A DNA stretch of 64,000 nucleotides from Pseudomonas sp. P8_241 (GTDB taxonomy: Bacteria; Pseudomonadota; Gammaproteobacteria; Pseudomonadales; Pseudomonadaceae): assembly GCF_034008315.1 (NCBI RefSeq), contig NZ_CP125377.1:3608001-3672000 (forward strand), in the 5' to 3' direction. The translations under genes were made by a program, and so were the position numbers. The notes under the pieces were generated by a model. It had not been told where the DNA came from, did not search any database, and worked only from the letters and a program-made list of their open reading frames with translations. This document shows positions 11,317-61,030 of the stretch, one piece after another (the first letter of the stretch is position 1; each line of letters begins with the position of its first letter).

Positions 11317-12684
11317 TTAGCGGATACCCGCGTTGCGCAGCGCAGCCGGGGTGAAGTCCGCCATTGTCGGCTGGTAGCTGTAGTCGGTGCCGCGCTTGTT
11401 CTCGTTGCCCAGGTTCGACACCAGATAACGCCCGGCAATCAGGTCATAGATACCGATCCCGGCATAGACCGCAACGCCCTGCTGGTAATCGTTGACCAGA
11501 TGCCCCTCGCTGACCCGCCACAATTGACCGCGACCGTCGTATTGATCGATTTCCACGGCCGCCCAAGTGTCTTCATCGAAGTACATGTGACGTTTGGCAT
11601 AGATATGCCGCTCACCAGGCTTGAGCGTACCTTCCACTTCCCACACCCGATGCAGTTCGTAGCGAGTCAGGTCCTGATTGATATGCCCGGGCTTGATGAT
11701 GTCGGCGTATTTGAGCTTCGGCGATTGCAGCAAGTAGTTGTTGTACGGAATGTACATCTCTTTCTTGCCGATCAATTTCCAGTCGTAACGGTCCGGCGCG
11801 CCGTTGTACATGTCGGCGTTATCGGCCACGCGCATGCCGTCGGCCGCCGTGCCCGGACCGTCATAGGCGACTTGCGGTGCACGTCGTACCCGACGCTGAC
11901 CGGCGTTGTAGGCCCAGGCCATACGCGGTTCCTTGACTTGATCGAGGGTCTCGTGGATCAGCAGCACACTGCCCGCCATCCGTGCCGGTGCCGTCACGGT
12001 CTGCTTGGCATAAAACAGGATATTGGCGCTTTCCTCAGGCTTGGCATCGGCCATTTTCCACGGTAACCCCGCTGCGATTTCGATCTGCACAATGGTGTAG
12101 TCACCATTGGTCTGCGGGGTGGCCTGGGCCTGGCGGTTGATGAAGTTGGTGCCCCGTGAACGGGTCAGGTGGTTCCAGACCACCTCCAGGCCATTCTTCG
12201 GAATCGGGAAGGCGTAGTAGTGCGATTGTTCGAAGTTTTTCAGCGCGTAGCCATCGTTCGCGGGTTCGGTGGTCACCGCGCTTTTCTTCGCCGCATCGTA
12301 GACCTCCTGCGGCGCCGATGCCGTGCGCTGGGTCTTGTACACCGGAATCTTGTAGGTGTCGGGGTAACGCACGAACATCGCCAGTTGCCCGGCCGTCAGC
12401 TTGTCCTTGTACTGCGCGGCGTTAGCGGCGGTGATCACGAATTGCGGCTTGTCACCTTCGAACGGGTTGCCGAGAAATTCATTGGTCACCGGTGCAGCGC
12501 CAGGCTTCAGGCCACCGGTCCAGGCAGGAATAGTGCCACTGGCGTTGCCGGCCTTCTCGCCCCCCAACGGCGTCAGCGTGGTACCCAGTTGCGCGGCTTG
12601 CTGCGCAGAAACAGCAGCCATGATGCTGGTCGATAACAGACTCAACGCGAGTGTGCCGCATGCAACAAGAATGATTTTTTTCAT
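11317..12684 (-). CDS. DUF1329 exported protein, copy 1
   Basis: This 455-residue protein has a Sec signal peptide (residues 1-23, cleavage near IMA|AVS). It is DUF1329 over its whole length, with YAFPIPKNGLEVVWNHLTRS and YNAGQRRVRRAPQVAYDGPG as recognisable blocks. DUF1329 proteins have a LolA-like fold. They almost always accompany DUF1302 outer-membrane proteins in clusters that degrade hydrophobic compounds, where they are thought to help move lipophilic substrates across the envelope. The gene follows the DUF1302 gene by 25 nt in the same operon. A closely similar second copy lies at 23776-25143. Function beyond envelope handling is not established. Confidence 0.85.
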   Translation of the reverse strand: MKKIILVACGTLALSLLSTSIMAAVSAQQAAQLGTTLTPLGGEKAGNASGTIPAWTGGLKPGAAPVTNEFLGNPFEGDKPQFVITAANAAQYKDKLTAGQLAMFVRYPDTYKIPVYKTQRTASAPQEVYDAAKKSAVTTEPANDGYALKNFEQSHYYAFPIPKNGLEVVWNHLTRSRGTNFINRQAQATPQTNGDYTIVQIEIAAGLPWKMADAKPEESANILFYAKQTVTAPARMAGSVLLIHETLDQVKEPRMAWAYNAGQRRVRRAPQVAYDGPGTAADGMRVADNADMYNGAPDRYDWKLIGKKEMYIPYNNYLLQSPKLKYADIIKPGHINQDLTRYELHRVWEVEGTLKPGERHIYAKRHMYFDEDTWAAVEIDQYDGRGQLWRVSEGHLVNDYQQGVAVYAGIGIYDLIAGRYLVSNLGNENKRGTDYSYQPTMADFTPAALRNAGIR

Positions 12685-12709
12685 GGTCTCGATCCTTTGC
12701 TGTGGGCTA

Positions 12710-14617
12710 TCAGAAGTTCACGCCGACGCTGAGCGCAACGTAGTCGCGATCACCGTTGGTGTTGAAATGGCCGCCGAAGTAATCCGTGTAGCTGAGGCTG
12801 GCGGTGTACAGGTTGGCGTAGTCGGCATCCACCCCGAGGCTGACGGCTTTGAGGCCCTCCTCGAAGTTCGGGCCATTGCCGTCGACGTCATGGGACCAGG
12901 CGATGTTCGGCGCCAGGTTCACCCCGGCGAACACGTTCGGGTAGTCGAGTCGGCCGCGCAGGCGATAACCCCAGGAATCGGTGGTATAGAAACCGTGGCT
13001 GTTGCATTCCTGCTGCGGATTGCTCGGACGGGTGACACCGGCAGCGGCACCGGGTACCTGACTCTGCGTTCCGACGCAGGTTTGCGGGCCGGTCGCACCG
13101 ACGCCCGCGCCGGTCGCCAGTGCGCCCGCACCGAAAATCGTGCTGCGGCCAAAACGCAAGTCAGTGCCGTCGGAATCGCCCAGACCGTTGATGCGGTTGT
13201 AGCCCACCTCGCCGACCAGGGTGAAACGACTGGCGCCCATGACCTGATCGAAGAAGCGTGTGGCGCTGAACTGGGTCTGCAACACCGGCATCCGTACGTA
13301 ACCGTCGAGGGGTGCGCCGGCAACATTCTGCGACAGGCCGGCAACGAACGACGGCGAGTTCTTGTTGCCGGTCGCCGCCAGATTCAAGTCGGCGCCGTTG
13401 AGTTGCAGCGGCATGTTCGGCCGATAGCTGACTTCGCCGCCCAGCGAGGTGCCGAGGGCGTTGGTCGAGAAGCTCAGCCCGTAGAGGCGGATGTCCTCGG
13501 GATACACAACGTGGTAGGTCGCGGTGCGGATCGAATTGATCGCGCCCGGCACCGTCGCCAGGCCGGCTCCAGTGTTGGTGGTCACGGTGGCGCGGGTGAA
13601 ATCGAGGTTCGGGTTACGGCTGTGGTAATTGAGGAAGTAGGCGCCGAACTCGGTATCGTTCAAGTCCGGGGCGAACCAGCGCAGGGCCACGCCGAACTGG
13701 CCGCTGTCACGGGCATCCTTGGTCTTGGTGCGGGTCACATAGGCGTCGTCCACCCCGCCGCCCTGTGCTCCGGTCCCGGCGACAGCCAATCCGGATTTGC
13801 TGTTGGTGCCCACGCCCGGCGGCAGGTCGAGGCCGGCGATCACCGCACGGTCGTTACAGCCTTCAGGCGTGAGGTCATTGCCGAAGAAGGTGCCGCAATT
13901 GTCGATCACCGACGGCGCCCATTCGATCTGGTAAAAAGCCTCGGCGGTAACGTTCTCGGACAAGCCCTGGGACACGTACAGCATGTTGACCGGAATCAGG
14001 CCTTCCTTGACTTCGGCACCCGGGCGCCGCAGGGCCGCCACATCAATCGGGTTGATGCTGTTGATCGAGTTGCCGATGAAGGTGCTTTCGCCCCAGCTCA
14101 CCACCTGCTTGCCCAGGCGCACGTTGCCCTGCAATTGATCCAGCGTGTAGTTGTGGTAGACAAAGCTGTCGAGAAACATCGCCCCGGACGATTTCGCCGC
14201 ACGCTGGCGGCCGTGATCGTCGATGTCATAGAACGGCCGACTCTCGTCCATCAGCTCGAAGTCGTACCAGTACTTGCCGCGCACGAAGGCGCCACTGTCG
14301 CCGTACTTCAACTCCAGGTCATGCACGCCTTTGAAGATCTTCGAGAAGGTTTCGCCCTTCTTGAAATTCAGCCGATTGTCGTCGTTGGTCCGCGACGAGG
14401 CGTTGCCCCTGACACCTTGCGAATTGAAGTTGGAAATGAAGTCCGGGTCGGGTCCGCGGACGGCCCAACTGGCACCCACCGACAGCGACGAATCGAAACT
14501 GCCCTCAATCTCACCCATATCGAAACTTACAGCGTAAGCCTGCGCGCTAATCCCCAAGGCAACGGCTGCTGCCAGCAGATGCGGTTGAAAGACTGCGCAC
14601 TTTGTTGTTTTTGTCAT
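12710..14617 (-). CDS. DUF1302 outer-membrane barrel protein, copy 1
   Basis: This 635-residue protein has a signal peptide (cleavage near AYA29). It shows the DUF1302 pattern SLSVGASWAVRGPDPDF, NDDNRLNFKKGETFSK and LGKQVVSWGES, and it ends RDYVALSVGVNF with the terminal Phe of outer-membrane barrels. The start has GGGGAG 5 nt upstream. DUF1302 proteins pair with DUF1329 proteins in catabolic clusters for hydrophobic substrates such as steroids. The N-terminal third is almost base-for-base identical to copy 2 (25169-26989), while the rest differs and carries a longer insertion around residues 270-300. Likely substrate uptake across the outer membrane; inferred from family and context. Confidence 0.85.
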   Translation of the reverse strand: MTKTTKCAVFQPHLLAAAVALGISAQAYAVSFDMGEIEGSFDSSLSVGASWAVRGPDPDFISNFNSQGVRGNASSRTNDDNRLNFKKGETFSKIFKGVHDLELKYGDSGAFVRGKYWYDFELMDESRPFYDIDDHGRQRAAKSSGAMFLDSFVYHNYTLDQLQGNVRLGKQVVSWGESTFIGNSINSINPIDVAALRRPGAEVKEGLIPVNMLYVSQGLSENVTAEAFYQIEWAPSVIDNCGTFFGNDLTPEGCNDRAVIAGLDLPPGVGTNSKSGLAVAGTGAQGGGVDDAYVTRTKTKDARDSGQFGVALRWFAPDLNDTEFGAYFLNYHSRNPNLDFTRATVTTNTGAGLATVPGAINSIRTATYHVVYPEDIRLYGLSFSTNALGTSLGGEVSYRPNMPLQLNGADLNLAATGNKNSPSFVAGLSQNVAGAPLDGYVRMPVLQTQFSATRFFDQVMGASRFTLVGEVGYNRINGLGDSDGTDLRFGRSTIFGAGALATGAGVGATGPQTCVGTQSQVPGAAAGVTRPSNPQQECNSHGFYTTDSWGYRLRGRLDYPNVFAGVNLAPNIAWSHDVDGNGPNFEEGLKAVSLGVDADYANLYTASLSYTDYFGGHFNTNGDRDYVALSVGVNF

Positions 14618-14909
14618 GCGGCTCCCCGAACTACGGTTTGTGTTGGAGCGCCAACAGTAGGGAATGTGCCATCACTCGGGACATTCCCTGATGGGGTGAT
14701 TTCGGATTACCCGTGTGGGTAATCACGGGTTGATCGTCGATACAAGAAGTAACGTTGGCGGGCTTGCGATGTGTGGGGCAGTCTTATCAACCGAAAAGGG
14801 TATTGCCGGCGCTGGTCAGGCTGCGGATGCTTTAGCGCAGTTACCGTTCAGTCATTAGCCTGCTGTGGACTAGAACGCGGCGCATTGCCCTGTGGTCCGG
14901 GAGACCGAA
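14618..14909. promoter_or_regulatory. divergent control region with two inverted repeats
   Basis: This region lies between the leftward DUF1302/DUF1329 operon and the rightward MalT-type regulator. It holds GGGAATGT (14660-14667) mirrored by ACATTCCC (14681-14688), and a perfect GATTACCC-GTGT-GGGTAATC palindrome at 14705-14724. Both are close to the DUF1302 start and are good operator candidates for the adjacent regulators. No experimental site is known to me. Confidence 0.5.
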
Positions 14910-17420
14910 ATGTCGCAGTCCCTTTCAGCCATTTCCCTACAGTCGCGCAAGCCGGTCAGCCTGGCGTCCGAGGAAGCGCCCAGTCCTTCCTCTCGGTTGT
15001 TACCGCGCCAGCATCTGGTGGCGCAGTTGCTGGAGAAACCCCGACGCCTGCGTTTGCTTTGCGCACCCGTGGGGTATGGCAAAACCTCATTGATCAGGCA
15101 ATGCCTGTCCCGGTCCGCACCGGCGCCGCTGATCCTGCAACTCAATCTGGCGGGTCAACCCTTGTGCCTGGCGCGGTTTTGCATGCGCATCGCCGAACTG
15201 CTCGGCGAGCTGGCGCAACCCGTCGTTACCGGTTCCGCGCTGCTGAGTGCGCTTGAAGGCTTGAAAGAACCATGCACCCTGGTCCTCGACGACTATCTTG
15301 CCGGGGCCGATACGGCACTCGATGCGTGGATCGACCACCTGCTTGTGCACTCCTCCGCCCCCATTGAACTTTGGGTCAGCTGCCGACGACGCCCGACCTG
15401 GAACCTGCCGCGCCTGCTACTCGAAGGTCAATTGCTGACGCTGGACAGCGAGGCACTGGCTTTTTCCCGTCAGGAGTCCGACGACCTCGTGTATCTGCTG
15501 GCCCCGGCGACGACGCAAGCGGGCCTCGACGCGATCTGGCAACAGGCCTGGGGCTGGTGCGCAGGCACACGCTTGTTGCTCACCTCCCCGAGCGCCGCTC
15601 AACCGATGCTGTACGACTACCTCGAGCGCGAACTGCTGTCACACCTGAGCGCCGAGCAATGCAGCCTGCTGTGCGGTCTGGCGTATTTGCCGCGATTTTG
15701 CCAAGCCCTGTGTGCCGAGCTTTGGGAAGAGCTTCATGACAAAGCGTGCCTTCATCAATTATTGATGTCCCATGCGTTCTTCCAGGCACTGGACAGCGAT
15801 GGCCAGTGGTATCGCATCCTGCCGGCAGTCGCTCAGGCACTGCAGGGCAGGATGGACGCAAGCGCAGTCAATCGATTGCGCTTGCGCGCCTGCCGTGGCC
15901 TGAGTGCGAGCGGTTTCATCGAGGACGCCATCGACCTGGCGTTGAGTGCCGGTCGCGCGGATGTCGCCGCCAACTACATGGCGACACTCAACCCGAGCTG
16001 GCTCTTGTCCGGGCGCAATTTGCAGAGGCTGCTGGACTGGCGCAAGCACTTGCCGGCCCGCTTGCAATCAAGCACGCCGCAGCTGGTAGTACTCATCGCC
16101 TGTGCCTTGATGATGAACATGCGGCTGAATGACGCGCAGGCGGCCCTGGAACAACTGAGTCAATTCCTGCCGCAACCCTCGGCACAACAGAACCGTCGCC
16201 TGCTGGCGCTCTGGCAAGCCTTGTCGGGTTCAATCAATGGTCTTCTGGGCAACTGCACCCAGGCCATGGAGTATTGCCAGGCCGCGCTGGAGCATCTGGG
16301 CGAGGATGAGCAACATCTGTCGTTTGTCTGCACGGTCATCCTTGCGCGCATGGCCATGAGCACCGGCGCGACTGTTCAGGCTCAACAGATCCTGATGCTC
16401 GCCCTCGAAAAGGCGCGGCGCCAAGGCAGTCTGATCCGGGAGGTGCAGGTCAACACTCAGCGTATTTGCCTGATGATTTTGTGTGGGGAAAGCGATCTGG
16501 CCGAACGGTTGTTGCAGCACAATCTGTCGTTATTGCAGGCCGATGGCAATCGGGATGTGATGCTGCTGGGCCGTCTGCTGGTGTTGCAGGGCAAACTGCA
16601 TCTGCAGCGCGGTGAGCAGGACTGTTGCGAGCGCACCCTGAAGCAGGCGTTGCAGCTCCTTGGCGCCCACAACCTGTCCATCCTGCACGCACTGACGGGC
16701 CTCTCGCAAGTGTGCGCCTGCCGGGGCGATTTCCAGCAGGCCTTCGCTTTGCTGCAGGACGCCGAACGCCACATGCAATGCGCCGATGCCCAGGAAAGCA
16801 GCTACCGCGCGGTGCTCAATCTACAAACCCTCAGCGTGCTGATCCATCAGAAAAACTGGAAACAGGCGCTGCTCATGGCGCAGATGATCGAACAATATCT
16901 GCGAGGCTCCGCCGCTCGCTTGACCTGCGTGTATGTGCCGTCGCTGGCGGTGCACAGTCAGCTGCTATTAGCCATTGTCGAACAGGGCATCGGCCAGTCC
17001 AAAGACGCCGGCAGGCGCCTGGAGACCGTGCTGCGCGAGTGCCGTCGCCTGAACTTCCACGGGCTTGAGGCAAAGGCGTTGCGCCTGCTGGATGACCTCA
17101 CCCGGGACACTGGCGCGTCGCACCCGGCCCGGCAGCCGACGCGAAACAACGGCACCTTCAATCTGGTCGTCAGCGAAGCCAGAGTGGTCCCACCGCGCCA
17201 ATCGGCCGTCAGTACCAAGCAACATGAGCAGCTCACGAGCCGTGAGATGGCCGTACTGGAACTGCTCGCCGAAGGTTTCTCAAACCGGGAGATCAGCGAG
17301 CGCCTGTACATCTCGACCAATACGGTCAAGGCACACATCAAGCACATCAACAGCAAGCTGGGCGTAACCCGGCGCGCTCAAGCGGTGATGCGCGCCAAGG
17401 CGACCGGTGTATTGGTGTGA
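14910..17420 (+). CDS. MalT-type LuxR transcriptional activator (ATPase + repeats + HTH)
   Basis: This 836-residue regulator has the full MalT architecture. A P-loop ATPase domain carries Walker A APVGYGKTS at residues 52-60 and the Walker B-like LVLDDYLAG. A long helical-repeat sensor region follows. The C-terminal LuxR helix-turn-helix reads LTSREMAVLELLAEGFSNRE, then TNTVKAHIKHINSKLG. Such proteins bind an inducer and ATP, multimerise and activate promoters. The ATG at 14910 is preceded by GGGAG at 6 nt; a GTG six codons upstream is less likely. It is divergent from the DUF1302/DUF1329 operon, its probable target. Its last 43 bases overlap tail-to-tail with the short LuxR gene on the other strand. 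Confidence 0.88.
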   Translation: MSQSLSAISLQSRKPVSLASEEAPSPSSRLLPRQHLVAQLLEKPRRLRLLCAPVGYGKTSLIRQCLSRSAPAPLILQLNLAGQPLCLARFCMRIAELLGELAQPVVTGSALLSALEGLKEPCTLVLDDYLAGADTALDAWIDHLLVHSSAPIELWVSCRRRPTWNLPRLLLEGQLLTLDSEALAFSRQESDDLVYLLAPATTQAGLDAIWQQAWGWCAGTRLLLTSPSAAQPMLYDYLERELLSHLSAEQCSLLCGLAYLPRFCQALCAELWEELHDKACLHQLLMSHAFFQALDSDGQWYRILPAVAQALQGRMDASAVNRLRLRACRGLSASGFIEDAIDLALSAGRADVAANYMATLNPSWLLSGRNLQRLLDWRKHLPARLQSSTPQLVVLIACALMMNMRLNDAQAALEQLSQFLPQPSAQQNRRLLALWQALSGSINGLLGNCTQAMEYCQAALEHLGEDEQHLSFVCTVILARMAMSTGATVQAQQILMLALEKARRQGSLIREVQVNTQRICLMILCGESDLAERLLQHNLSLLQADGNRDVMLLGRLLVLQGKLHLQRGEQDCCERTLKQALQLLGAHNLSILHALTGLSQVCACRGDFQQAFALLQDAERHMQCADAQESSYRAVLNLQTLSVLIHQKNWKQALLMAQMIEQYLRGSAARLTCVYVPSLAVHSQLLLAIVEQGIGQSKDAGRRLETVLRECRRLNFHGLEAKALRLLDDLTRDTGASHPARQPTRNNGTFNLVVSEARVVPPRQSAVSTKQHEQLTSREMAVLELLAEGFSNREISERLYISTNTVKAHIKHINSKLGVTRRAQAVMRAKATGVLV

Positions 17421-18619
17421 CACAGCACATGGGGCGCGTCTTCAAGGCAATCGAGCAGCCCTCGCGCCCTGGCGATGGCGGCGGCTTGCGTCTGGCCGTG
17501 AGCGCCCAGCTTGCGGAAGAGATTGCGCAGATGCACTTTCACCGTGTACCCGGAAAGTCGCAAATTGTCCGCAATCGCACTGATCGGATAGCCCTGAGCG
17601 ACCAGACGGACCACTTGCTGTTCGCGCTCGGTGAGCACAGAGCACGCTTGTCCAACGTCGCTGGGCAGTCCAGGCGCGCCAGCCAATCGCTTGAGCAGAT
17701 CACCAATAAACCCCGGCTCGCCCCCTCGCGCCCGGAGTGTCCGGGCGCAGCGTTGCAACAGCGCCTCAAGGCAGGCCCCTTCTTCGACAAAGGTGCTGCG
17801 CCAGCCCTCCTCGCTGGCAAACGGCAACAGCCCGGTGAGTTCTGCCATTGCCGCTTCGTGTTGTGCACTGCCCTCAAGGGCCACGGCGAGCAGCAAACGC
17901 AGCTTGAGCTTGCGGCGCAAACGACCCTGCCCGTGTGCTTGCGCAATTTCCGGGCGTAACGTGCGAAGCGCCAGGTCAAAGCGTCCTTGTGCGATGTACA
18001 GGCGCACGCGGGCGACGGTGGGCGTGTCGACGTCGTTGGCGTAGTAAAACGCCTGCGAACGCGCCCAATCGCCGTATCTGTCCACGTGAGTCAACGCCTG
18101 AGCAGCCGCAAGCACACGACCTTCCAGCGTCGCCATACGCGCACGCTCAATCCAGACCGAGCACTGGCTGCGTCGGCATGCCCGGTCATGGGCAGCTTGC
18201 ATAAGCGTGGCGAGGTGGCGTCGACAGATGGCCCCCTCACCTCGGGAGTAGGCGATTCGGGCCATCAGGATATGACTGACGATCAGTGCGTCCGGCGGGC
18301 TGTCGTCCGGGATGTGAGGCTGGGTTCGCGCGAGCAGGTCTTGTGCCTGATCCAGCGATCCACTTTCGTAAAGCACAAGGGCTCGCATGACGTTGGGCAG
18401 CAAGCCCGCCAACGCGGTGCAATCTGGAACAAAACACTCCAGGCGCATACGGGCCGATGCCAGCCCCCCTTGAGTCAGGTCGATGAGGCTTTCCATCGCC
18501 GTCGCCGCAGGGGGTACGCCGCCGGTGCCGTGCTGCGCGGCATGCCCTATCACTTGGGACAGCCTGCGCCTGGCCGCGTCGAAACGTCCGAGGGCCAGCA
18601 GGTCACAGGCTGTCTTCAT
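17378..18619 (-). CDS. second short MalT-type LuxR regulator lacking the ATPase domain
   Basis: This 413-residue protein ends in a LuxR helix-turn-helix (LTEREQQVVRLVAQGYPISA, then YTVKVHLRNLFRKLGAHGQT) with an unusual ~27-residue tail. The preceding region matches the repeat-rich C-terminal half of the long regulators (CSVWIERARMATLEGR, VARVRLYIAQGRF). No P-loop is present. It lies 9 nt downstream of the racemase gene and has no strong ribosome site of its own, so it may be translationally coupled to it. The linkage suggests it controls this operon or the neighbouring beta-oxidation genes. It overlaps the 3' end of the convergent long regulator by 43 nt. Confidence 0.78.
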   Translation of the reverse strand: MKTACDLLALGRFDAARRRLSQVIGHAAQHGTGGVPPAATAMESLIDLTQGGLASARMRLECFVPDCTALAGLLPNVMRALVLYESGSLDQAQDLLARTQPHIPDDSPPDALIVSHILMARIAYSRGEGAICRRHLATLMQAAHDRACRRSQCSVWIERARMATLEGRVLAAAQALTHVDRYGDWARSQAFYYANDVDTPTVARVRLYIAQGRFDLALRTLRPEIAQAHGQGRLRRKLKLRLLLAVALEGSAQHEAAMAELTGLLPFASEEGWRSTFVEEGACLEALLQRCARTLRARGGEPGFIGDLLKRLAGAPGLPSDVGQACSVLTEREQQVVRLVAQGYPISAIADNLRLSGYTVKVHLRNLFRKLGAHGQTQAAAIARARGLLDCLEDAPHVLCHTNTPVALARITA

Positions 18620-18628
18620 GGCCGTACG

Positions 18629-19744: not shown

Positions 19745-19934
19745 CTCTTCCCCCATTTGTAGTGACATGGCAACGGACGCTGAAGCCCTGTGCACCAGCG
19801 CTGATCGTAGTCGATACCCTAGCAGAGCCCCCTGAAAATCGTGCCCCCCGCTTTGGGGGGCTATAGGCTGGAAAAGACAGGGCTACCCTAGGCCTTCCTC
19901 TTCAGGCAATAACAACAACAGGAAGGAAGAAAAC
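19745..19934. promoter_or_regulatory. divergent promoter region, racemase versus exported propeller-like protein
   Basis: The region contains a strong hairpin, GCCCCCC-GCTTT-GGGGGGC, at 19843-19861. Two TACCCTAG(C/G) copies lie near 19815 and 19883, spaced about 70 nt apart, and could be regulator half-sites. GGAAGGA just before 19935 is the ribosome site of the rightward gene. Confidence 0.4.
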
Positions 19935-21647: not shown

Positions 21648-21690
21648 CTCGATGGCGGGATGTCGTTGACGCTCATCGCATCCCTTCCTC

Positions 21691-22410: not shown

Positions 22411-22422
22411 CTGACCGCGCAT

Positions 22423-26989: not shown

Positions 26990-27060
26990 GCGTTTCTCCA
27001 TTGATTCTGGCGCAAGGAAACCCGATCGCCCTCGTGGATGCGACTCGGATTACGGTGATC

Positions 27061-31333: not shown

Positions 31334-31343
31334 GGACATTTCC

Positions 31344-39511: not shown

Positions 39512-39552
39512 CAATGGAATCCTTCTTGCAAAAAACGCAACGCACGGATGGC

Positions 39553-48159: not shown

Positions 48160-48190
48160 CAGATAACTCCAAAATGAATGGATCTTTTTT

Positions 48191-48304
48191 TGTAGGAGCG
48201 AGCTTGCTCCGGCCGGTGATCCGACGAAGCACTCCAGGACGGCGCGGTTATTCAGCGTGTACGCGTTATCGTTGACGTCCATCGCGAGCGGGCTCGCTCC
48301 TGCT
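48191..48304. repeat. single REPIN
   Basis: TGTAGGAGCGAGCTTGCTCC and the mirrored ATCGCGAGCGGGCTCGCTCC flank a spacer, within what may be a transcript joining the dehydrogenase pair to the ETF genes. Confidence 0.82.
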
Positions 48305-48323
48305 GGGGATTGGGGATGACGGG

Positions 48324-53516: not shown

Positions 53517-56198
53517 ATGGAAGGGTTTGAACGTAGTTCCAATGAACCAGCACAGGGAGCAAAGCCACCCGTTCGCGCTGGAAAATTCCTGGCGCCGGCC
53601 AGCCTGCCAGGCCAATTGGAACGTTCGACTTTGCTTGCACAACTCGAACAATACGAAGGCGTGCGCCTGATCCTGATCAGCGCCTGTGCCGGGTACGGCA
53701 AGACCACGCTGTTGCAGCAATACCGCGAGCGCTGCATCAACGCCGGTCGACGGGTGTTGTGGTGCAACCTTGATCAGGCCGACAACGAGCCAGCCCGGCT
53801 GCTCCATGTGTTGTCCATCGGTTTGCGCGAACTGGGTCTGCTTGAGGAGTACACGCCTGACGAAGGCGAGCCGGCGCGTTACGAGCAATGGTTGCTGGAG
53901 CACCTCGCTGCCAGTAGCGAAACCTTCACCCTCCTGCTGGATGATTTCCAGGCCATTGACAATCCGCAGGCCCTGGATTTTTTCCAGCGCCTGCTCAAGG
54001 CATTGCCCGTTGGCAGCACATTGGCCATCGCTGCGCGCACAACGCCGGACATCAACCTGGGGCGGTTACGGGCCCGAGGCGAGTTGCTGGAGATCGGCAC
54101 CGATGCATTACGCCTGAGCATCGAGGAAACGGCCGGTTATATCCTGCAAAAGCGTCAACTGCCGCTGGACGCCGTCGACATCGGCAACCTGCACCAGCGC
54201 TGCGAAGGCTGGATTACCGGGATCTACCTCGCGACCCTGTCTCTGCAACGGCACAGCGATCCGGCAGCATTTATTGCTTCGTTCAATGGTTCCAACCCGG
54301 CGCTGGCCGAGTACTTTGCCGAAGACGTTCTGGCCAGGCAGACCGCGCAGCGCCAGCAATTCCTGTTGCAGACCAGCGTGCTGTCGCGGTTCTGCCCTGC
54401 CCTGTGCGATGCCGTCACCGGCCACAGCGACAGCAAAGCCATGATCGAATCGCTGGAGCGGGACAACCTGTTCGTTGTTGCAACAGACGACCAGCGCCAA
54501 TGGTTTCGTTTTCACAGCCTGTTCGCAGACTTCCTCCTGCAATCGCTCAAACAACATTCGGACAAATTCGAACAGCAACATCGTGCGGCGGCTTACTGGT
54601 TCTTCACCAACGATCAGCCGGTGGATGCCCTGGAGCATCTGTTTGCCGCGCACGCCGTCGATGAGGCCGCCAAACAACTGGTGTTGCACATCGATGAACT
54701 GGTGGAAAACGGCCATGCGAGCCTGCTGATGCGCTGGCTCTCGCGCATTCCGGTCGAGATACGGGATCTGCATCCCCGACTGGGCATTGCCTATGCGTGG
54801 GCGTTACTCCATGCGCGTCGCCACAAAGACGCGCTTCAGGTCCTGGAAAACCCGGCGTTGGCCGACGAACACCACTACGTCTATCCGCTGTTGTTGCTGA
54901 TCGGCGACCGGGTCCACGAGGCGTTGCTGGCCAGTACCGAACTGCTGGAGCGACTCGGCCCCCAGGACACGTTGTCCTATCGGTTGACGGCGTTTGTGCA
55001 GGCCTGCTCGCTGTTCTACAGCGGACGCTTCGATGAAGCGCGCAACAAGCTTGGCAGTGCGGGGCTACGCGAGGCACAACGTGAGTCGGCCTACCTGCGC
55101 GATGTCTCCGATGCCCTGGAGGCGATGCTCGACCTGACCCAAGGGCAACTCGACAGTGCCCTGACCCGTGTGGATGCCGCCATGCGCCGCAGTCGTGAGT
55201 CGTTTGCCGGAACTCCGCCCGTAGGGTTTCCCATCCTGCAAACCATCCATTGCGTGGTGCTTTACGAAACCGCTGCCCTGGATGAAGCCCAGCGGCGACT
55301 CAGCGAACTGTTGCCTTATGCCAGGGAACACGCCGCGCCAGACTCGTTGATCAGCATCCATGTATTGCTGGCACGCATTGCCTACCTGAACGCAGATCGC
55401 CCGAACTGGATGCGTCACCTGGCCGATCTCGACCAGTTGGGCCAGGTGGCGGGCTCCACGCGCATTCTCTGCTCGACCTGGCTGGAGCGCGCACGTGTCG
55501 CCACTCTGGAAAATCGCCTGGATACCGCCGATCACGCCATGCGCGCGGCCGAACAGTTAAGTGACTGGGAACAGACGGGGGTGACACTGAGCGCCAACGA
55601 TGTCGATATACCTTTTATCGCTCGCCAGCGCCTGCGCATCGCTCAAGGTGACGGCGATTGCGCCGAGCCGTTGCGCCAGGCTATCGATCAGGCACTGCAA
55701 CGCCACCAGCATCGCCGCGCCCTGAAACTGCGTCTGTTGCTGGCCATGGCACTGGATGGCACAAAACAGCACAAGGAGGCCCTGGAACAACTGACGCTGG
55801 CCTTGCGCTTCGCCAGCCACGTGGGTTTCATCCGCACCTTTCTCGACGAAGGCGCACCCTTGGCGGCCGTACTGGAACGCTGGTCGGTGACCTTTCATGG
55901 CCAGGAACAGGCACTGGGCATCCGTGCAGGCTTTATCGCCCTGTTGTTGAAGGGCGAGAGCAGCAGCCAGAAAGTCGAGGGCAACAGCGAAGACGCGACA
56001 ACGACCAATCTGTCCAACCGTGAACTGCAAGTGGTGCGCATGCTGGCGTTGGGTTATCGCAACCGCGAAATCGCGGAAAAGATGTTTCTTTCCGAGCTGA
56101 CGGTGAAATCGCACCTGCGCAAGATCAACACCAAACTCGGTGCCGGGGGACGCACCGAGGCGGTGTCGATCGCGCGGGCCCAAGGGTTGCTGGACTGA
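53517..56198 (+). CDS. MalT-type LuxR transcriptional activator
   Basis: This 893-residue regulator has Walker A ACAGYGKTT at residues 56-64, the Walker B-like LLLDDFQAIDNPQALDFF, the family segment WITGIYLATLSL, helical repeats and the C-terminal LuxR domain (LSNRELQVVRMLALGYRNRE, then ELTVKSHLRKINTKLG). The ribosome site AAGGTAGG precedes the ATG at 53517. It is divergent from the aldehyde dehydrogenase gene, which makes the alcohol-oxidising operon its likely target. It is closely related to the regulator at 42200-44938. Confidence 0.88.
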   Translation: MEGFERSSNEPAQGAKPPVRAGKFLAPASLPGQLERSTLLAQLEQYEGVRLILISACAGYGKTTLLQQYRERCINAGRRVLWCNLDQADNEPARLLHVLSIGLRELGLLEEYTPDEGEPARYEQWLLEHLAASSETFTLLLDDFQAIDNPQALDFFQRLLKALPVGSTLAIAARTTPDINLGRLRARGELLEIGTDALRLSIEETAGYILQKRQLPLDAVDIGNLHQRCEGWITGIYLATLSLQRHSDPAAFIASFNGSNPALAEYFAEDVLARQTAQRQQFLLQTSVLSRFCPALCDAVTGHSDSKAMIESLERDNLFVVATDDQRQWFRFHSLFADFLLQSLKQHSDKFEQQHRAAAYWFFTNDQPVDALEHLFAAHAVDEAAKQLVLHIDELVENGHASLLMRWLSRIPVEIRDLHPRLGIAYAWALLHARRHKDALQVLENPALADEHHYVYPLLLLIGDRVHEALLASTELLERLGPQDTLSYRLTAFVQACSLFYSGRFDEARNKLGSAGLREAQRESAYLRDVSDALEAMLDLTQGQLDSALTRVDAAMRRSRESFAGTPPVGFPILQTIHCVVLYETAALDEAQRRLSELLPYAREHAAPDSLISIHVLLARIAYLNADRPNWMRHLADLDQLGQVAGSTRILCSTWLERARVATLENRLDTADHAMRAAEQLSDWEQTGVTLSANDVDIPFIARQRLRIAQGDGDCAEPLRQAIDQALQRHQHRRALKLRLLLAMALDGTKQHKEALEQLTLALRFASHVGFIRTFLDEGAPLAAVLERWSVTFHGQEQALGIRAGFIALLLKGESSSQKVEGNSEDATTTNLSNRELQVVRMLALGYRNREIAEKMFLSELTVKSHLRKINTKLGAGGRTEAVSIARAQGLLD

Positions 56199-56201
56199 AC
56201 G

Positions 56202-56999
56202 TCACTTCACAACGGGCCATTGGTAAAGCGCCGGTTCTTTGCGCATGAACCGCGCGGCGGCTGCCTGGACATAGGGCGAAGTCATCGCTACCGCCTGGGC
56301 GGCGGCTTCGCCATCGAGTTGCGTGGCCAGATCGACGTCGAAGGTGCGCGCCAACAGGCGTTTGCTCAGGCCGAAAGCGACCGTCGACACATTGCTCAGG
56401 CTGCGCGCCAGTTCTTGCGCACGCGCTCGAAACCGGTCGGCGGGATGCACTTCAAGCGCGATGCCCAGCGCCAGGGCTTCTTGCGCAGAGACTTCGCGGG
56501 CGGAATAGATAATCTCCCTGGCTTTGGGCAACCCGACGATGCGCGGCAAGGTGTGAGATGCACCCATGTCCGGAACAAGGCCTATACGGGCAAACGCCAT
56601 GCAGAAGCGTGCCCGGTCCGAGGCGATCAGAAAGTCAGCGGCCAGAGCCAGACTGAAGCCGGCGCCGAACGCAACGCCATCCACGGCGGCGATCACGGGC
56701 CGGTCGAAGGTCGCCAGTGCAACGAGCACACGGTTGAAAGGGTCTATTCGCTGGAGCACATCGATCGCTGCGATTGCGTCACCCATTTTGCTGACGTCGG
56801 CCCCGGAACAAAAATCGCACCCGGCGCCCGTCAACAACAGCGCCTTGACCGCCGGATTCGCACGAAGACTCTCCAGCGCCTGGCGTAACTCATCGGCCAT
56901 TTGCAGGGTGATTGCATTCTTGCGCTCGGGACGTTTGAGAGTCAGCGTCGCCAGGCCCTCTTCAATGGATAATTCAACGAAAGTGTTCAGTACAGTCAT
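56202..56999 (-). CDS. crotonase-family protein, isomerase-like active site
   Basis: This 265-residue crotonase-fold protein has SGADVSKMGD for the oxyanion hole and GVAFGAGFSLALAADFLIAS, where the hydratase Glu is Ser. GLVPDMGASHTLPRIVG keeps the Asp used by PaaG- and ECI-type enoyl-CoA isomerases. Double-bond isomerisation is therefore more likely than simple hydration. It is convergent with the MalT-type regulator, 3 nt away, and lies 177 nt downstream of the TetR gene. It probably handles misplaced double bonds in the branched acyl chain. Confidence 0.78.
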   Translation of the reverse strand: MTVLNTFVELSIEEGLATLTLKRPERKNAITLQMADELRQALESLRANPAVKALLLTGAGCDFCSGADVSKMGDAIAAIDVLQRIDPFNRVLVALATFDRPVIAAVDGVAFGAGFSLALAADFLIASDRARFCMAFARIGLVPDMGASHTLPRIVGLPKAREIIYSAREVSAQEALALGIALEVHPADRFRARAQELARSLSNVSTVAFGLSKRLLARTFDVDLATQLDGEAAAQAVAMTSPYVQAAAARFMRKEPALYQWPVVK

Positions 57000-57176: not shown

Positions 57177-57821
57177 TTACGCACCCACGGCCATCGCATG
57201 TTCAACGAACGCCAGCAATTGATCGTGTAATTGCTTGAGCGGAATATCGGACGGGTCCAGCAAAAACTGCAGCATGGTCCCGCGCAAGGCGCCCAGAATC
57301 AGCATCGCACCGGCCATCGGGTCGACCTGCGCGCGGATCTCGCCGCTGGCGATGCCTTCGCTGATGTAGTGCGCCAGATGCTGCTGCACCGAGCGGTTGT
57401 ATTCGGCGAGAATTTGCGCGATGTCCGAATCCTGGGTTACCGCTTCGGCCATCAGTGCCAGCAAGGCGCGGGTGTTGATCCAGTCGCCATCGTTGCGTCC
57501 CAGATAAATGCTGACAAAGCCCTTGAGCGCGTCGATGCCGGGACGCCACCGCGAGGACTCGGCCTCCACCAGGTGCATGAAGCTCGAATTGACGAAACCC
57601 GCCAGGGCGCGCAACAAACCGGCCTTGTTACCGAAATGGTGGGTCGCCAGGCCGCGGCTGAACCCGGCCTCCTCACCCACCTCGGACAGGGTCATGCCGA
57701 CCCAGCCTTTGCGCGCAACAATTTGCCGTGCCGCGATCAGTAACCGTTGTTCAGCCTCGGCGCGACGTTCGACCTGGGTGCGACGGGTGGACGCCTGAGT
57801 GGTTTTTTCAACGGGTTCCAT
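57177..57821 (-). CDS. TetR-family transcriptional repressor
   Basis: This 214-residue regulator has an N-terminal TetR helix-turn-helix (LIAARQIVARKGWVGMTLSE, then AGFSRGLATHHFGNKAGLLR, about residues 26-72) and a C-terminal ligand domain. The start at 57821 has AAGGA 8 nt upstream and lies 10 nt after the stop of the crotonase gene, so the two are one operon. The divergent acyl-CoA dehydrogenase pair shares the promoter region, which contains an imperfect palindrome that could be its operator. Ligands of such regulators in this setting are usually acyl-CoAs. Confidence 0.88.
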   Translation of the reverse strand: MEPVEKTTQASTRRTQVERRAEAEQRLLIAARQIVARKGWVGMTLSEVGEEAGFSRGLATHHFGNKAGLLRALAGFVNSSFMHLVEAESSRWRPGIDALKGFVSIYLGRNDGDWINTRALLALMAEAVTQDSDIAQILAEYNRSVQQHLAHYISEGIASGEIRAQVDPMAGAMLILGALRGTMLQFLLDPSDIPLKQLHDQLLAFVEHAMAVGA

Positions 57822-57831
57822 CGGTAGTTCC

Positions 57832-58617
57832 TTACTGACCTGTAAATACGGGTGGGCGTCGTTCGGCCATCGCCTGGATGCCTTCGGCGAAATCGGCACT
57901 GACAATCTGCCATTCCTGCTCGCTGGCTTCCCGATCGATGATCCGGTCGACCGCATCGGCCAACCCGCTGCGCAGGGTTTCACGGCTGGACATGACGGCC
58001 ATGGGCGCCGAAGCGGCAATTTCTTCGGCCAGATCCCGGGCGGCCTGTCGCTCCAGCCCCGGCTCTGCCAGCACGTCGGCCAGCCCGATGCGCACGGCTT
58101 CGCGGCCATCGATGCGGCGCCCCGTGGCGATCAGCAGCGAGGCCATTTGCGGGCCGACCAATCGCGGCATGGTAACCGAAATCCCGAACCCCTGATGAAT
58201 GCCCAAGCGGTTGAAGTTGGCAGAAAACCGGGCTTTCTCACTGGTGACCCGGAAGTCGGCGACCAGCGCCAAACCCAGTCCCCCACCAATGGCGGCACCC
58301 TCCACCACACAAATCAGCGGTTTGCGGTTGCGAAACAAACGCACCGCCGATTTGTAGACGCGACGCGGGTATTGCGCATCGCGTTGATCGGCGCCGGAAA
58401 AGTCCGCACCGGCACAAAACACTTTGCCCTCGGCTTGCAGGATGACCACGCGGCACTCCGGTAAATCGTCGAGATAGTCCAGTGTGTCGGCCAGGTCCTT
58501 GATCAACTGGGCATCGAAGAAATTCAGCGGCGGCCGGTTGAAACCCAGCGTTGCGACATGCCCTTGTAGGTCCAGCGTGAGGCCGTGGCCAGGGATAAAC
58601 GCGGTGTGAACAGACAT
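57832..58617 (-). CDS. crotonase-family protein lacking hydratase glutamates
   Basis: This 261-residue crotonase-fold protein has FCAGADFSGAD for the oxyanion hole, but the two glutamates of enoyl-CoA hydratases are missing: GAAIGGGLGLAL has Gly in place of the first, and RLGIHQGFGIS has Gly in place of the second. The frame and fold motifs are intact. It may catalyse a different crotonase reaction (isomerase, C-C lyase or thioesterase). It starts an operon with the TetR gene and is divergent from the dehydrogenase pair. The start at 58617 matches the family length. Confidence 0.76.
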   Translation of the reverse strand: MSVHTAFIPGHGLTLDLQGHVATLGFNRPPLNFFDAQLIKDLADTLDYLDDLPECRVVILQAEGKVFCAGADFSGADQRDAQYPRRVYKSAVRLFRNRKPLICVVEGAAIGGGLGLALVADFRVTSEKARFSANFNRLGIHQGFGISVTMPRLVGPQMASLLIATGRRIDGREAVRIGLADVLAEPGLERQAARDLAEEIAASAPMAVMSSRETLRSGLADAVDRIIDREASEQEWQIVSADFAEGIQAMAERRPPVFTGQ

Positions 58618-58760: not shown

Positions 58761-59903
58761 ATGCAGGCACTCGACATCCGTCCCTGTCATCTGGACGCCA
58801 GCACGCAAACCCTGCGCGCCGAGGTGCGCGAATTCCTCGCCGAGACGTTGAAAGACTTCCCGGCCCAGGAGCGCGCCAAAAACTGGAACGGCGCCGACCC
58901 GCAGTTCAGCCGCAAGCTCGGCGCCCGGGGCTGGTTGGGCATGACCTGGCCAAAACGCTACGGCGGCCATGAGCGCAGCGCCCTTGAGCGCTATGTGGTC
59001 CTTGAAGAGTTGCTGGCCGCGGGCGCCCCGGTGAATGCCCACTGGATCGCCGAACGTCAATCCGGCCCGTTGCTGATGAAGTTTTCGCCTGACGTCCTCG
59101 CCCCTCGGTTTCTACCCGCCATAGCCCGGGGTGAATTGCTGTTTTGCATCGGCATGAGCGAGCCGGATGTCGGCTCCGACCTTGCCTCGGTGCGCACCCG
59201 TGCGGTCAAGACCGACGGCGGCTGGCACGTCCACGGCAGCAAGGTGTGGACCACCGGCGCCCATCGCAGCCATTACATGGTGACCCTGCTGCGCACCGGC
59301 CCGAAAGAGGAAAACAATCGTCACGCCGGTCTCTCGCAATTGCTGATCGACCTGCAAGCCCCCGGTGTCACGGTGCGCCCGATCTACAACATGCTGGGCG
59401 AGCACGATTTCAACGAAGTGTTCCTGGACAACGTATTCGTCCCCGATGATTTTGTCATCGGCCAACCGGGTGATGGCTGGAAGCAAGTCGGTGCGGAGCT
59501 GGCGCTTGAGCGCAGCGGGCCGGAGCGCTACCTCAGCTGCACGCAGCTGTATCTGGAAATGCTCGATGCCGCCGATCCGCAGAACTCGCGCCATGCCGTA
59601 AGCCTGGGGCGAGTCGCCGCGCGATATGGCGCATTGCGCCAAATGTCACTGGGTGTGGCCGGCATGCTCGCCCGCGGTGAAAACCCGGCGACACCGGCCG
59701 CGCTGGTCAAGGATCAAGGCGCGCTGCTGGAACAATCGCTGCCCGACCTGGCCCACGATCTGTTCGGCGGCACCCGGCAACCGGGTTCCAGGCTCGATCA
59801 GGTGATGCGGTATCTGACTCAGACCGCCCCTTCGTTTTCGTTGCGTGGCGGCACCCGCGAAATTCTTCGCGGCATTATTGCGAGAGGATTAGGACTGCGA
59901 TGA
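58761..59903 (+). CDS. acyl-CoA dehydrogenase, alpha-like subunit of second pair
   Basis: This 380-residue protein has GMSEPDVGSDLASVRTRAVK, WHVHGSKVWTTGAHRSHYMV, DNVFVPDDFVIGQPGDGWKQ and a C-terminal LRGGTREILRGIIARGLG. These motifs mark a catalytically plausible acyl-CoA dehydrogenase of the long-substrate type. Its stop codon overlaps the next ATG by 4 nt (ATGA at 59900-59903), so the two products are made in step and probably assemble. Divergence from the TetR operon suggests de-repression by an acyl-CoA ligand. Confidence 0.86.
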   Translation: MQALDIRPCHLDASTQTLRAEVREFLAETLKDFPAQERAKNWNGADPQFSRKLGARGWLGMTWPKRYGGHERSALERYVVLEELLAAGAPVNAHWIAERQSGPLLMKFSPDVLAPRFLPAIARGELLFCIGMSEPDVGSDLASVRTRAVKTDGGWHVHGSKVWTTGAHRSHYMVTLLRTGPKEENNRHAGLSQLLIDLQAPGVTVRPIYNMLGEHDFNEVFLDNVFVPDDFVIGQPGDGWKQVGAELALERSGPERYLSCTQLYLEMLDAADPQNSRHAVSLGRVAARYGALRQMSLGVAGMLARGENPATPAALVKDQGALLEQSLPDLAHDLFGGTRQPGSRLDQVMRYLTQTAPSFSLRGGTREILRGIIARGLGLR

Positions 59904-61030
59904 ACCAGGCACTCAATGATCAAGCGGTGGACGCCAACGCGCCATCGGAACTGCAATCGATGATTGCCGACAGCGTCGAACGCCTGTTCGCCGATCAGAT
60001 CACCCCCGAGGTGCTGGCCCGCTTCGATGCCGGACAGGCCGCGAGCGAATTGTGGCAACTCGTGGTGGACAACGGTCTGCCCGGTGCACTGGTGACGGAG
60101 GACGCGGGTGGCAGCGGTGCGAACTGGCTTGAGGTCAGCCCCGTAATGCGCGCCATCGGCTACTGGAAAGCCCCGCTTGCCCTGAGCGAGACCATGCTGG
60201 CTGCGATGTTACTGGGCCGCGTCGGACTCGACGTGCCAGAAGGCCCAATGACAGTCATTCAGACCGGACATTGCGGTGATCTTGAGCTGGGCGAAGACGG
60301 CAATCTGAGTGGCAGCGCTACCAGTGTGCCTTGGGCACGCAGTTGCCAATGGGCGGTCGTTGCCGATCCGCGCGGGCGCATTGCACTGGTCGATCTCAAG
60401 CATCCTCTGGTTCGCGTGGAGCCCGGCAGCAACTTTGCGGGCGAACAACGCGACACCCTGCATTTCGACGCCACGCCTGCCAAAGCAATGGTGGCGCTTC
60501 AAGTGGCCGACATTGCAGAGCCTGTGTGGTTGTTCGGTGCTCTGATGCGCGCCTGCATGTTGGTCGGGGCTTTGGAGTCAAGCCTTGATCAGGCGGTGGC
60601 CTATGCGAACGAGCGTGCGCAGTTCGGCAAGGCCATCGGAAAATTTCAGGCGATTCAGCAACAGCTTGCGCAGATGGCCGGCGCGATCGGCCTGGCCCGA
60701 ACGGCTACGCAAGTGGCCCTTCACAGTGCCTGTCAGGCCATGGCTGCCCAACCGGGCAGTCGCAGCAGTTTGCTGTTCGACGTGGCCGTGGCCAAAGTCT
60801 GCGCCGGCGAAGCCGCCACACTGGCGACCTCGGTGGCGCATCAGGTGCACGGTGCCATCGGCTTTACCCATGAGCACACCCTGCACTTCGCAACCCGTCG
60901 GTTGTGGTCATGGCGTGACGAGTTTGGCAGCGATGCACAGTGGGCCGAAGTGCTGGGTCAGGCGGCGATTGCGGCGGGAAGCGAAGGGTTCTGGGCAGGT
61001 TTGACGGCGCGGGATCTTCATCCCGTTTGA
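59900..61030 (+). CDS. acyl-CoA dehydrogenase, beta-like subunit of second pair
   Basis: This 376-residue protein keeps the C-terminal helical domain (ANERAQFGKAIGKFQAIQQQ, then VHGAIGFTHEHTLHFATRRL). It lacks the TEPGAGSD-type motif, the NGxKxWxT stretch and the late GGTxEI motif; the middle domain is short. This is the profile of the partner subunit in heteromeric acyl-CoA dehydrogenases. It is translationally coupled to the preceding gene through an ATGA overlap. It is comparable to the product of 48324-49466. Confidence 0.84.
   Translation: MNQALNDQAVDANAPSELQSMIADSVERLFADQITPEVLARFDAGQAASELWQLVVDNGLPGALVTEDAGGSGANWLEVSPVMRAIGYWKAPLALSETMLAAMLLGRVGLDVPEGPMTVIQTGHCGDLELGEDGNLSGSATSVPWARSCQWAVVADPRGRIALVDLKHPLVRVEPGSNFAGEQRDTLHFDATPAKAMVALQVADIAEPVWLFGALMRACMLVGALESSLDQAVAYANERAQFGKAIGKFQAIQQQLAQMAGAIGLARTATQVALHSACQAMAAQPGSRSSLLFDVAVAKVCAGEAATLATSVAHQVHGAIGFTHEHTLHFATRRLWSWRDEFGSDAQWAEVLGQAAIAAGSEGFWAGLTARDLHPV

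Follow-up and report, generated by a model that had tools for sequence, protein, structure and literature searches.

In peroxisomes, 2-methyl-branched acyl-coenzyme A (CoA) esters are acted on by a set consisting of alpha-methylacyl-CoA racemase (AMACR), acyl-CoA oxidase, MFE-2 (D-bifunctional protein), and SCPx. The actinobacterial route for the cholesterol side chain uses FadD19, MCR, ChsE4-ChsE5, ChsH1-ChsH2, FadA5, and Ltp2, and ChsE4-ChsE5 is described as an alpha2beta2 enzyme. In terpenoid degradation, MyrR, a LuxR protein of the MalT type, is described as controlling the myrcene island of Pseudomonas sp. M1 (PMC7794910), and AmeA and AmeB of Castellaniella as part of an apolar monoterpene efflux system (PMC6394551). 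Here we compare these systems with a catabolic region of Pseudomonas sp. P8_241 lying in a stretch of 64,000 nucleotides, hereafter the window (3608001-3672000 of a single-contig 6.39-Mb genome; coordinates below are window positions unless given in Mb). With a probability that we put at roughly 0.6, the region at 11317-61030 is one of several modules that degrade a hydrophobic primary alcohol with an alpha-methyl branch through (R)-specific beta-oxidation of the peroxisomal style; ancestrally, this alcohol would have been a sulfate ester.

The gene inventory is based on open reading frame (ORF) calls and Pfam scans of 11317-61030, and every enzyme named in an initial annotation of the region was found. 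The Pfam matches include an alcohol dehydrogenase (ADH), an aldehyde dehydrogenase (ALDH), one CoA ligase, one gene of the CoA-transferase III/racemase family, both subunits (alpha and beta) of an electron transfer flavoprotein (ETF), FAS1_DH and MaoC half-hydratases, a short-chain dehydrogenase/reductase (SDR), a DUF2889 protein, a thioesterase, and two DUF1302/DUF1329 pairs. Seven genes belong to the acyl-CoA dehydrogenase family (28787, 33501, 40775, 48324, 49477, 58761, and 59900), three encode SCPx-type thiolases (22504, 31838, and 39553), and two encode crotonases (56202 and 57832). The catabolic features are as follows.

18629..19795, minus strand: alpha-methylacyl-CoA racemase (PDB 1x74/8rmw, ~360 bits)
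22504..23691, minus: SCP2-type thiolase (PDB SCP2-thiolase type-1, 414 bits; NCBIfam PRK08256, 665 bits, cut-off 436)
27102..28664, minus: acyl-CoA ligase (Pfam; NCBIfam PRK06187, 535 bits, above cut-off)
28787..29929, minus: acyl-CoA dehydrogenase (Pfam)
30033..30866, minus: SDR, (3R)-hydroxyacyl-CoA-dehydrogenase-like (best PDB 2et6, 226 bits)
30899..31372, minus: MaoC half of split hydratase (Pfam MaoC_dehydratas)
31344..31781, minus: FAS1_DH/MFE-2 hydratase N-terminal half (Pfam FAS1_DH_region, 148 bits; MFE-2_hydrat-2_N, 31 bits)
31838..33022, minus: SCP2-type thiolase (Pfam; 74% identity to 22504)
33501..34649, plus: acyl-CoA dehydrogenase (Pfam)
34812..35276, plus: hotdog thioesterase (Pfam, NCBIfam)
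38939..39721, minus: DUF2889 protein (Pfam; ~190 aa in relatives)
39553..40740, minus: SCP2-type thiolase (Pfam; 73% identity to 22504)
40775..41881, minus: acyl-CoA dehydrogenase, divergent (Pfam)
46468..47409, minus: ETF alpha (Pfam)
47410..48282, minus: ETF beta (Pfam ETF; start in relatives ~48159)
48160..48323, no strand: lost-sulfatase site with REP/REPIN-like sequence in its place (comparison with orthologous operons)
48324..49466, minus: acyl-CoA dehydrogenase, PimD-like partner (NCBIfam PimD, 341 bits, cut-off 653)
49477..50673, minus: acyl-CoA dehydrogenase, PimC-like, H-E-R with Glu at the LCAD/IVD position (NCBIfam PimC, 480 bits, cut-off 624)
50782..51867, minus: zinc alcohol dehydrogenase (Pfam; class III/NDMA-ADH-like, below cut-offs)
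51946..53358, minus: aldehyde dehydrogenase, first gene of the alcohol operon (Pfam Aldedh; best NCBIfam MdlD benzaldehyde dehydrogenase, 278 bits, cut-off 550)
56202..56999, minus: crotonase (Pfam)
57832..58617, minus: crotonase (Pfam)
58761..59903, plus: acyl-CoA dehydrogenase (Pfam; alignment)
59900..61030, plus: acyl-CoA dehydrogenase-like partner without Glu (Pfam; alignment)

The racemase scores 290 bits against Far and at most 138 bits against CoA-transferases, compared with ~360 bits for alpha-methylacyl-CoA racemases, and a CoA-transferase identity was therefore rejected. The H and D positions, which we take to be the functional positions of the racemase, are kept in the alignment. 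Thiolase 22504 gives only 68 bits with the lipid-transfer protein 6ok1 and 26 bits with FadA5 against 414 bits for SCP2-thiolase, and an end step of the retro-aldolase (Ltp2) or FadA5 type was rejected on these scores. The C(A/S)TG, HDCF, and GHP motifs, presumably the nucleophile Cys and its accompanying thiolase elements, are present in all six regional copies checked, and the CxG motif is absent or misplaced in the regional SCP2-type thiolases. PDB 6hsj is presumably the zebrafish protein. The best PDB match of the SDR, 2et6, is a (3R)-hydroxyacyl-CoA dehydrogenase that we take to be yeast MFE-2, followed by FabG-type entries at ~149 bits. The MFE-2_hydrat-2_N score of hydratase half 31344 exceeds the cut-off (27 bits), and its PDB matches to HadA and ChsH1/ChsH2 are weak. 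The ligase shows no particular similarity to steroid-CoA ligases (282 bits with the CasG model; cut-off 750). At the family level of sequence comparison, the racemase, the SCP2-thiolase, and the dehydrogenase pairs match their names, as probably does the split MFE-2-like hydratase/dehydrogenase, pointing to alpha-methyl-branched acyl-CoA chemistry.

The dehydrogenase pairs should be noted. Among the NCBIfam models, PimC comes closest to 49477 and PimD to 48324. The top PDB match of 49477 is 4x28 (204 bits), presumably ChsE4-ChsE5 of cholesterol side-chain breakdown, and the next is Tcur3483 (197 bits). In the alignment, the Glu residue in a region that we take to be catalytic in LCAD and IVD is kept in 49477 and 58761 and is missing in the partners 48324 and 59900. 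Each heteromeric pair probably consists of one catalytic and one non-catalytic member.

In the proposed pathway, a sulfatase acting outside the cytoplasm would ancestrally have cleaved the sulfate ester to give the free alcohol, and the DUF1302/DUF1329 proteins would handle the hydrophobic compound at the outer membrane. The ADH and ALDH would convert the alcohol to the acid, which the CoA ligase would then activate, and the racemase would set the alpha-methyl configuration. The PimCD-like heteromeric dehydrogenases would form the enoyl-CoA and hand the electrons to the ETF encoded in the operon, the split MaoC/FAS1_DH hydratase and the MFE-2-like SDR would give the 3-oxoacyl-CoA, and the SCP2-thiolase would release propionyl-CoA (acetyl-CoA in unbranched rounds). 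MalT-like LuxR proteins probably turn the operons on. The gene content suggests a bulky alpha-methyl-branched primary alcohol, ancestrally sulfated, as the substrate class. An alcohol is the starting compound of the operon, and the orthologous operons include a sulfatase gene; the substrate may therefore carry oxygen before it enters the pathway. The initial annotation had noted the lack of a primary oxygenase and had taken it as a sign of a possibly undescribed pathway. No such gene was found among the Pfam-scanned genes, but this absence alone implies no new pathway. A P450 search gave a single match of 45 bits genome-wide and none among the scanned genes of 11317-61030; a sterol route started by P450 was rejected on this weak match, other hydroxylase types not having been searched genome-wide.

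The limits of 11317-61030 are not natural, as this set of genes appears again as far as ~90 kb to the left of the window. An all-versus-all BLAST of the region grouped six thiolases (64-83% identical), three PimC and three PimD proteins (66-75%), two racemases (65%), three SDR/MaoC/FAS1_DH sets, three ligases in the first stretch, four DUF1302 proteins, four close DUF1329 proteins, and, with fragments counted, eight LuxR-type regulators. Another ligase (71%) is located 80-90 kb left of the window, together with another dehydrogenase (70%) and LuxR regulator. The genome holds seven copies of the thiolase with 69-100% identity (69-84% without the query), six at 3.529-3.649 Mb and one at 2.262 Mb, the last having DUF1302, DUF1329, racemase-family, FAS1_DH, MaoC, and SDR genes as neighbors. 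DUF1302 occurs in 16 copies in the genome. Judging from these similarities, the cluster is part of a paralogous module set at about 3.52-3.67 Mb, with another module at 2.26 Mb. Because paralogous copies recur through parallel modules, the 50-kb unit is an arbitrary cut. The initial annotation had proposed a single ~50-kb pathway with a branched-chain toolkit: the toolkit (racemase, SCP2-thiolase, a probable split hydratase/SDR, and dehydrogenase pairs) stands at family level, whereas the single pathway is contradicted by several paralogous modules with matching neighbors.

The same annotation had proposed a synteny search for the whole gene set. We counted 34 called ORFs (the gene of the major facilitator superfamily, MFS, as two halves; DUF2889 excluded), with at least 70% identity over 85% of the length in a single fetched region as a match. 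Matches were found for 33 ORFs in P. putida 17522 (G002) and for 32 each in P. azerbaijanoccidentalis SWRI74 (G001) and P. putida ASAD (G012). In P. fluorescens PS862 (G005), the number is 24, and four ORFs share two places because this genome has one DUF1302/DUF1329 pair. The cluster is thus kept in three Pseudomonas genomes and partly in a fourth, and this conservation in single regions indicates more than a chance grouping. The short LuxR-like protein 17378 has less than 70% identity in all four relatives. Crotonase 56202 has an orthologue elsewhere in G002 and was not found in the stretches of G001, G012, and G005. G005 lacks 19935, the MFS gene, 14892, and the 58761/59900 pair at the syntenic place.

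A sulfatase gene is located between ETF beta and the PimD-like gene in all five orthologous operons (G001, G002, G005, G012, and P. serbica, G003). The G002 sulfatase is of the S1 type (Pfam Sulfatase, 163 bits), with a C-x-A-G-R motif and a signal-peptide-like start recognized by eye. In the window, the site is occupied by 164 bases with a REP-like sequence at 48192, and tblastn gave no sulfatase remnant at the operon (best E 0.09, at other places). In G002 and G012, but not in G001 and G005, the same pattern search found a REP-like sequence separating ETF beta from the sulfatase, and hence a REP-mediated loss of the window sulfatase is possible. The MFS gene, a single 444-aa ORF in G002, is broken in the window by an in-frame stop at 45558-45560. 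A second sulfatase, with 54% identity, is found 6.6 kb to the left of the window. With no sulfatase and a broken MFS gene, the window copy has probably lost the entry step, or gets it from another locus such as the 54%-identical sulfatase. Together with a LuxR fragment at 10081-11136, these losses could mean that the window copy is a duplicate in decay that no longer functions. This is very unlikely, as the other called genes are ORFs with at least 70% identity to their G002 orthologues (33 of 34, MFS halves counted).

In the genus sample, a sulfatase lies within 20 kb of 9 of the 21 racemase loci (9 of 15 genomes), compared with 0.34 expected. The racemase cluster of G145 contains two S1 sulfatases, a type-III alkylsulfatase, a GMC alcohol oxidoreductase, and an MMPL/RND-type protein, and that of G062 is alike. 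The G145 alkylsulfatase is 92% conserved in G062, and a 45% homologue adjoins a PimCD-ETF operon in G007. A single 28-kb stretch of G043 holds a sulfatase, two dehydrogenase pairs, ADH, ALDH, an acyl-CoA dehydrogenase, SDR, MaoC, a thiolase, and two ligases. The alkylsulfatases of G145 and G007, together with the closeness to the PimC and PimD models, would suit degradation of branched or long, surfactant-like alkyl sulfates and of dicarboxylates, in which the racemase would serve occasional methyl branches. However, the ancestral sulfatase of the operon is of the S1 type rather than type III, no alkylsulfatase homologue was found in the window and 14 further stretches of its own genome, and several modules with private thiolases and a racemase exceed the needs of plain chains. 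We regard this explanation as unlikely.

The genome also carries steroid ring-degradation genes. KshA_C was detected with 223 bits at 4.503 Mb, surrounded by a large catabolic cluster at 4.50-4.60 Mb. Ten proteins of this cluster were scanned: HsaC-like (281 bits, cut-off 450), HsaA-like (365, 450), 3-oxosteroid-1-dehydrogenase-like (585, 788), and HsaD-like (170, 400) proteins fall below the equivalog cut-offs, an HsaF-like aldolase (553, 286) and a lipid-transfer protein (683, 469) exceed them, and the remainder are less specific. The initial statement that ring-degrading steroid genes are absent is therefore true of the window, but the chromosome has a steroid ring cluster ~0.85 Mb away. 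VgrG-like proteins (by eye) and four near-identical proteins of 395-400 aa are also found in that region, at 4.54-4.577 Mb.

Racemase genes of the window's type co-occur with steroid ring clusters. Steroid degraders were defined as the 27 of 199 genus genomes with KshA_C of at least 215 bits, and an HsaC homologue search at E 1e-60 returns the same 27; the KshA count depends on the 215-bit line (43 genomes at E 0.001, 41 above the family cut-off). A racemase at least 58% identical to the window's is found in seven genomes, all steroid degraders (Fisher p 4e-7), and racemases at E 1e-60 in 15, including 11 steroid degraders (p 3.5e-8). The thiolase at 63% identity or more is found in 10 genomes, seven of them steroid degraders (p 3.6e-5; matches of ~50-59% identity in G067, G079, G102, G139, G144, and G145 left out). 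None of these p values takes common descent into account, and the counts may be inflated by catabolic generalists. PimC at 64% identity or more occurs in 14 of the 199 genomes, seven of which are steroid degraders. KshA_C is present in 14 of 16 named genomes hand-picked from 79 thiolase loci and missing in P. schmalbachii and Variovorax. A strict dependence on steroid rings was rejected, as G105, G129, and G147 carry the thiolase without KshA or HsaC. The counts suggest that racemases of the window's type accompany steroid degradation, and that the wider kit does not need it.

This co-occurrence, the 4x28 match of the dehydrogenase pair, and the sulfatase of the orthologous operons would fit a module for C27 bile alcohols or their sulfates. 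In fish, such alcohols are described as sulfated, and fish bile salts as signals in lakes. Compounds like 5-alpha-cyprinol sulfate would be oxidized to the C27 acid and shortened by the three end carbons as propionyl-CoA, and a C24 bile-acid-type CoA ester would pass to the steroid cluster of the genome, as the mammalian peroxisomal bile-acid step turned to catabolism. Several points speak against it: thiolase relatives (G105, G129, and G147) and racemase relatives (G097, G105, G147, and G189) occur without steroid genes, 18 of the 27 steroid degraders give no racemase or thiolase match at the thresholds used above, one similar cluster recurs in four of the seven racemase genomes, and the CasG score of the ligase is far below the cut-off. 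We know of no fish-gut link for the hosts. Such a module is not a likely assignment. More specifically, the cluster could be a pathway for the sulfated C27 bile alcohols of carp-like fish, in which sulfatase action, oxidation of the side chain to the C27 acid, racemisation, and release of propionyl-CoA by split-up peroxisomal machinery would feed a separate steroid ring pathway and the window strain, lacking the operon's sulfatase and transporter, uses free alcohols or acids or another module's sulfatase; this we consider quite unlikely. We found no description of the cluster, or of bacterial breakdown of C27 bile-alcohol sulfates, in the open-access literature, the subscription literature being mostly outside the scope.

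Returning to peroxisome-style oxidation of an ancestrally sulfated branched alcohol, the following observations weigh against it. A racemase of at least 58% identity is lacking in 20 of the 27 steroid degraders, a racemase at E 1e-60 in 16, and a thiolase of at least 63% identity in 20. The top NCBIfam model for the SDR is FabG (195 bits), below its cut-off of 296. Both members of 49477/48324 fall below the curated PimC and PimD cut-offs, and the name PimCD refers to dicarboxylyl-CoA rather than to branched chains. In G144 and G104, the PimCD-ETF operon, with dehydrogenases 65-68% identical, is set among ordinary beta-oxidation genes, and no racemase or sulfatase was called in the 15 kb fetched there. 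A sulfatase lies within 10 kb of only 4 of the 21 racemase loci, though 0.18 is expected, in 4 of the 20 PimC neighborhoods fetched, and nowhere within 20 kb of the window's own racemase. As the window operon has no sulfatase, the window itself shows no sulfated substrate.

The initial annotation did not list four full-length MalT-like LuxR regulators (14892, 35277, 41936, and 53517) and a short one (17378), a secreted beta-propeller protein (19935), a TetR gene, the MFS gene with an in-frame stop, and the lost-sulfatase site (48160-48323). The features for transport, regulation, and export are as follows.

11317..12684, minus strand: DUF1329 (Pfam, 502 bits)
12710..14617, minus: DUF1302 (Pfam, 542 bits)
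14892..17420, plus: MalT-like LuxR regulator (Pfam)
17378..18619, minus: short MalT-TPR/LuxR protein, no ATPase domain detected (Pfam; short in G002 too, 419 aa)
19935..21647, plus: exported beta-propeller protein without Pfam or NCBIfam family (predicted model and fold search)
23776..25143, minus: DUF1329 (Pfam, 501 bits)
25169..27001, minus: DUF1302 (Pfam, 535 bits)
35277..38030, minus: MalT-like LuxR regulator (Pfam)
41936..44938, plus: MalT-like LuxR regulator (Pfam)
44988..46322, minus: MFS transporter, in-frame stop at 45558-45560 (Pfam; single 444-aa ORF in G002)
53517..56198, plus: MalT-like LuxR regulator (Pfam)
57177..58109, minus: TetR regulator, ORF exceeds gene (Pfam)

DUF1302/DUF1329 proteins are described as needed for the use of Tween-20 by P. 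putida KT2440, and a transport system has been proposed (PMC10866462). In Castellaniella, proteins of these families are described as serving monoterpene tolerance. By family, these parallels and that with MyrR are leads to transport and regulation. They also bring in a module for terpenoid or isoprenoid alcohols under MalT-like LuxR control. As described, the M1 island has, besides MyrR, the ADH MyrB, the ALDH MyrA, and the acyl-CoA synthetase MyrC (PMC7794910), and the Castellaniella island has a LuxR gene, GeoA, GeoB, GeoC, and DUF1302/DUF1329 transporter genes. The existence of modules without steroid genes would also fit a terpenoid route. However, no myrcene-hydroxylase-like or other oxygenase and no hydrocarbon hydratase was found among the Pfam-scanned genes (linalool dehydratase-isomerase was not searched by sequence), the likeness to the Myr/Geo islands is one of description rather than of sequence, a sulfatase is no part of the islands as described, and the steroid co-occurrence would be left unexplained. 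A terpenoid substrate is possible, though doubtful.

The 19935 protein, which has no Pfam or NCBIfam family, gave 408 homologues, mostly unnamed, with Pseudomonas, Cupriavidus, and Variovorax among the best 120 of the 408. A homologue (28%) adjoins a sulfatase in G007. The predicted model of 19935 has a pLDDT of 85 with an 18-sequence alignment and of 32 from the single sequence. Foldseek returned beta-propellers, with BamB first (E 1e-10, query-based TM 0.47) and a quinohaemoprotein ADH sixth.

The conserved synteny does not extend to the gallate-like genes on the left of 3.3 kb. At 483-3108, Pfam identified a fused LigA/LigB ring-opening dioxygenase and an MFS gene; these and their neighbors, up to ~4.8 kb left of the window, presumably resemble a gallate (gal) cluster. 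At 4680-8802, Pfam gave an HpcH/HpaI aldolase, a CoA-transferase III, an acyl-CoA dehydrogenase, and a weak FAS1_DH-type gene, which we take to resemble an itaconate set. Between the second and third of these, the relatives have an MmgE/PrpD-family gene (Pfam in G002) that is missing in the window; the window ORF 5506-6753 opens with residues like the start of this gene. The sequence at 10081-11136 encodes the C-terminal fragment of a MalT-like LuxR regulator, and G002 also has a fragment (226 aa). Tandem REPIN-like arrays with a 116-bp unit occupy 21755-22411 (5.7 copies) and 38262-38922 (~4.4 copies). A very long open frame with odd second-position G+C, at 61210-64000 and beyond, could either encode a repetitive surface protein or represent a shadow frame; a Pfam scan of 61210-63999 gave no family.

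If the preferred reading of a peroxisome-style module for branched alcohols is true, Pseudomonas hold multi-copy, separately regulated versions of an animal-peroxisome pathway, tied to sulfatases and steroid degraders. The cluster would then be a testable candidate for the breakdown of sulfated branched alcohols, e.g. fish bile salts, by soil and water bacteria, and would supply candidate racemases, heteromeric dehydrogenases, and thiolases for branched substrates.

Compared with known systems, the cluster would belong to no named pathway. It shares dehydrogenase pairs, MaoC hydratases, and SCPx-family thiolases with the bile-acid/steroid cluster of its own genome (4.50-4.60 Mb), whereas the dehydrogenases there have 25-38% and the lipid-transfer-type thiolases (family PRK07855) 25-32% identity with the window set. 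The closest models for 49477/48324 are those of PimCD, which belongs to the pim operon for dicarboxylic acid degradation, yet both proteins fall below the cut-offs. The myrcene and monoterpene islands of M1 and Castellaniella, as described and with no sequences compared, have in common with the cluster an alcohol-aldehyde-acid-CoA route, a LuxR/MalT regulator, and DUF1302/DUF1329; they differ in that the cluster has no hydroxylase and the descriptions of the islands include no racemase, SCP2-thiolase, or sulfatase. The actinobacterial cholesterol route resembles the cluster in a racemase close to M. tuberculosis MCR and in a heteromeric dehydrogenase pair with 4x28 as the top PDB match. Steroid ring genes are present in the genome, whereas the thiolase is of the SCP2 type rather than like FadA5 or Ltp2, and no P450 that could act as a C26/27 hydroxylase (CYP125/142 or similar) is among the scanned cluster genes. 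Judging from its sequences, the cluster would work most like peroxisomal branched-chain beta-oxidation. Both have a racemase and an SCP2-thiolase of the same families and probably also a (3R)-type dehydrogenase and a hydratase-2 fold, whereas the cluster has dehydrogenases and ETF instead of oxidases, would have the MFE-2 and SCPx activities on separate genes, and holds several parallel copies.

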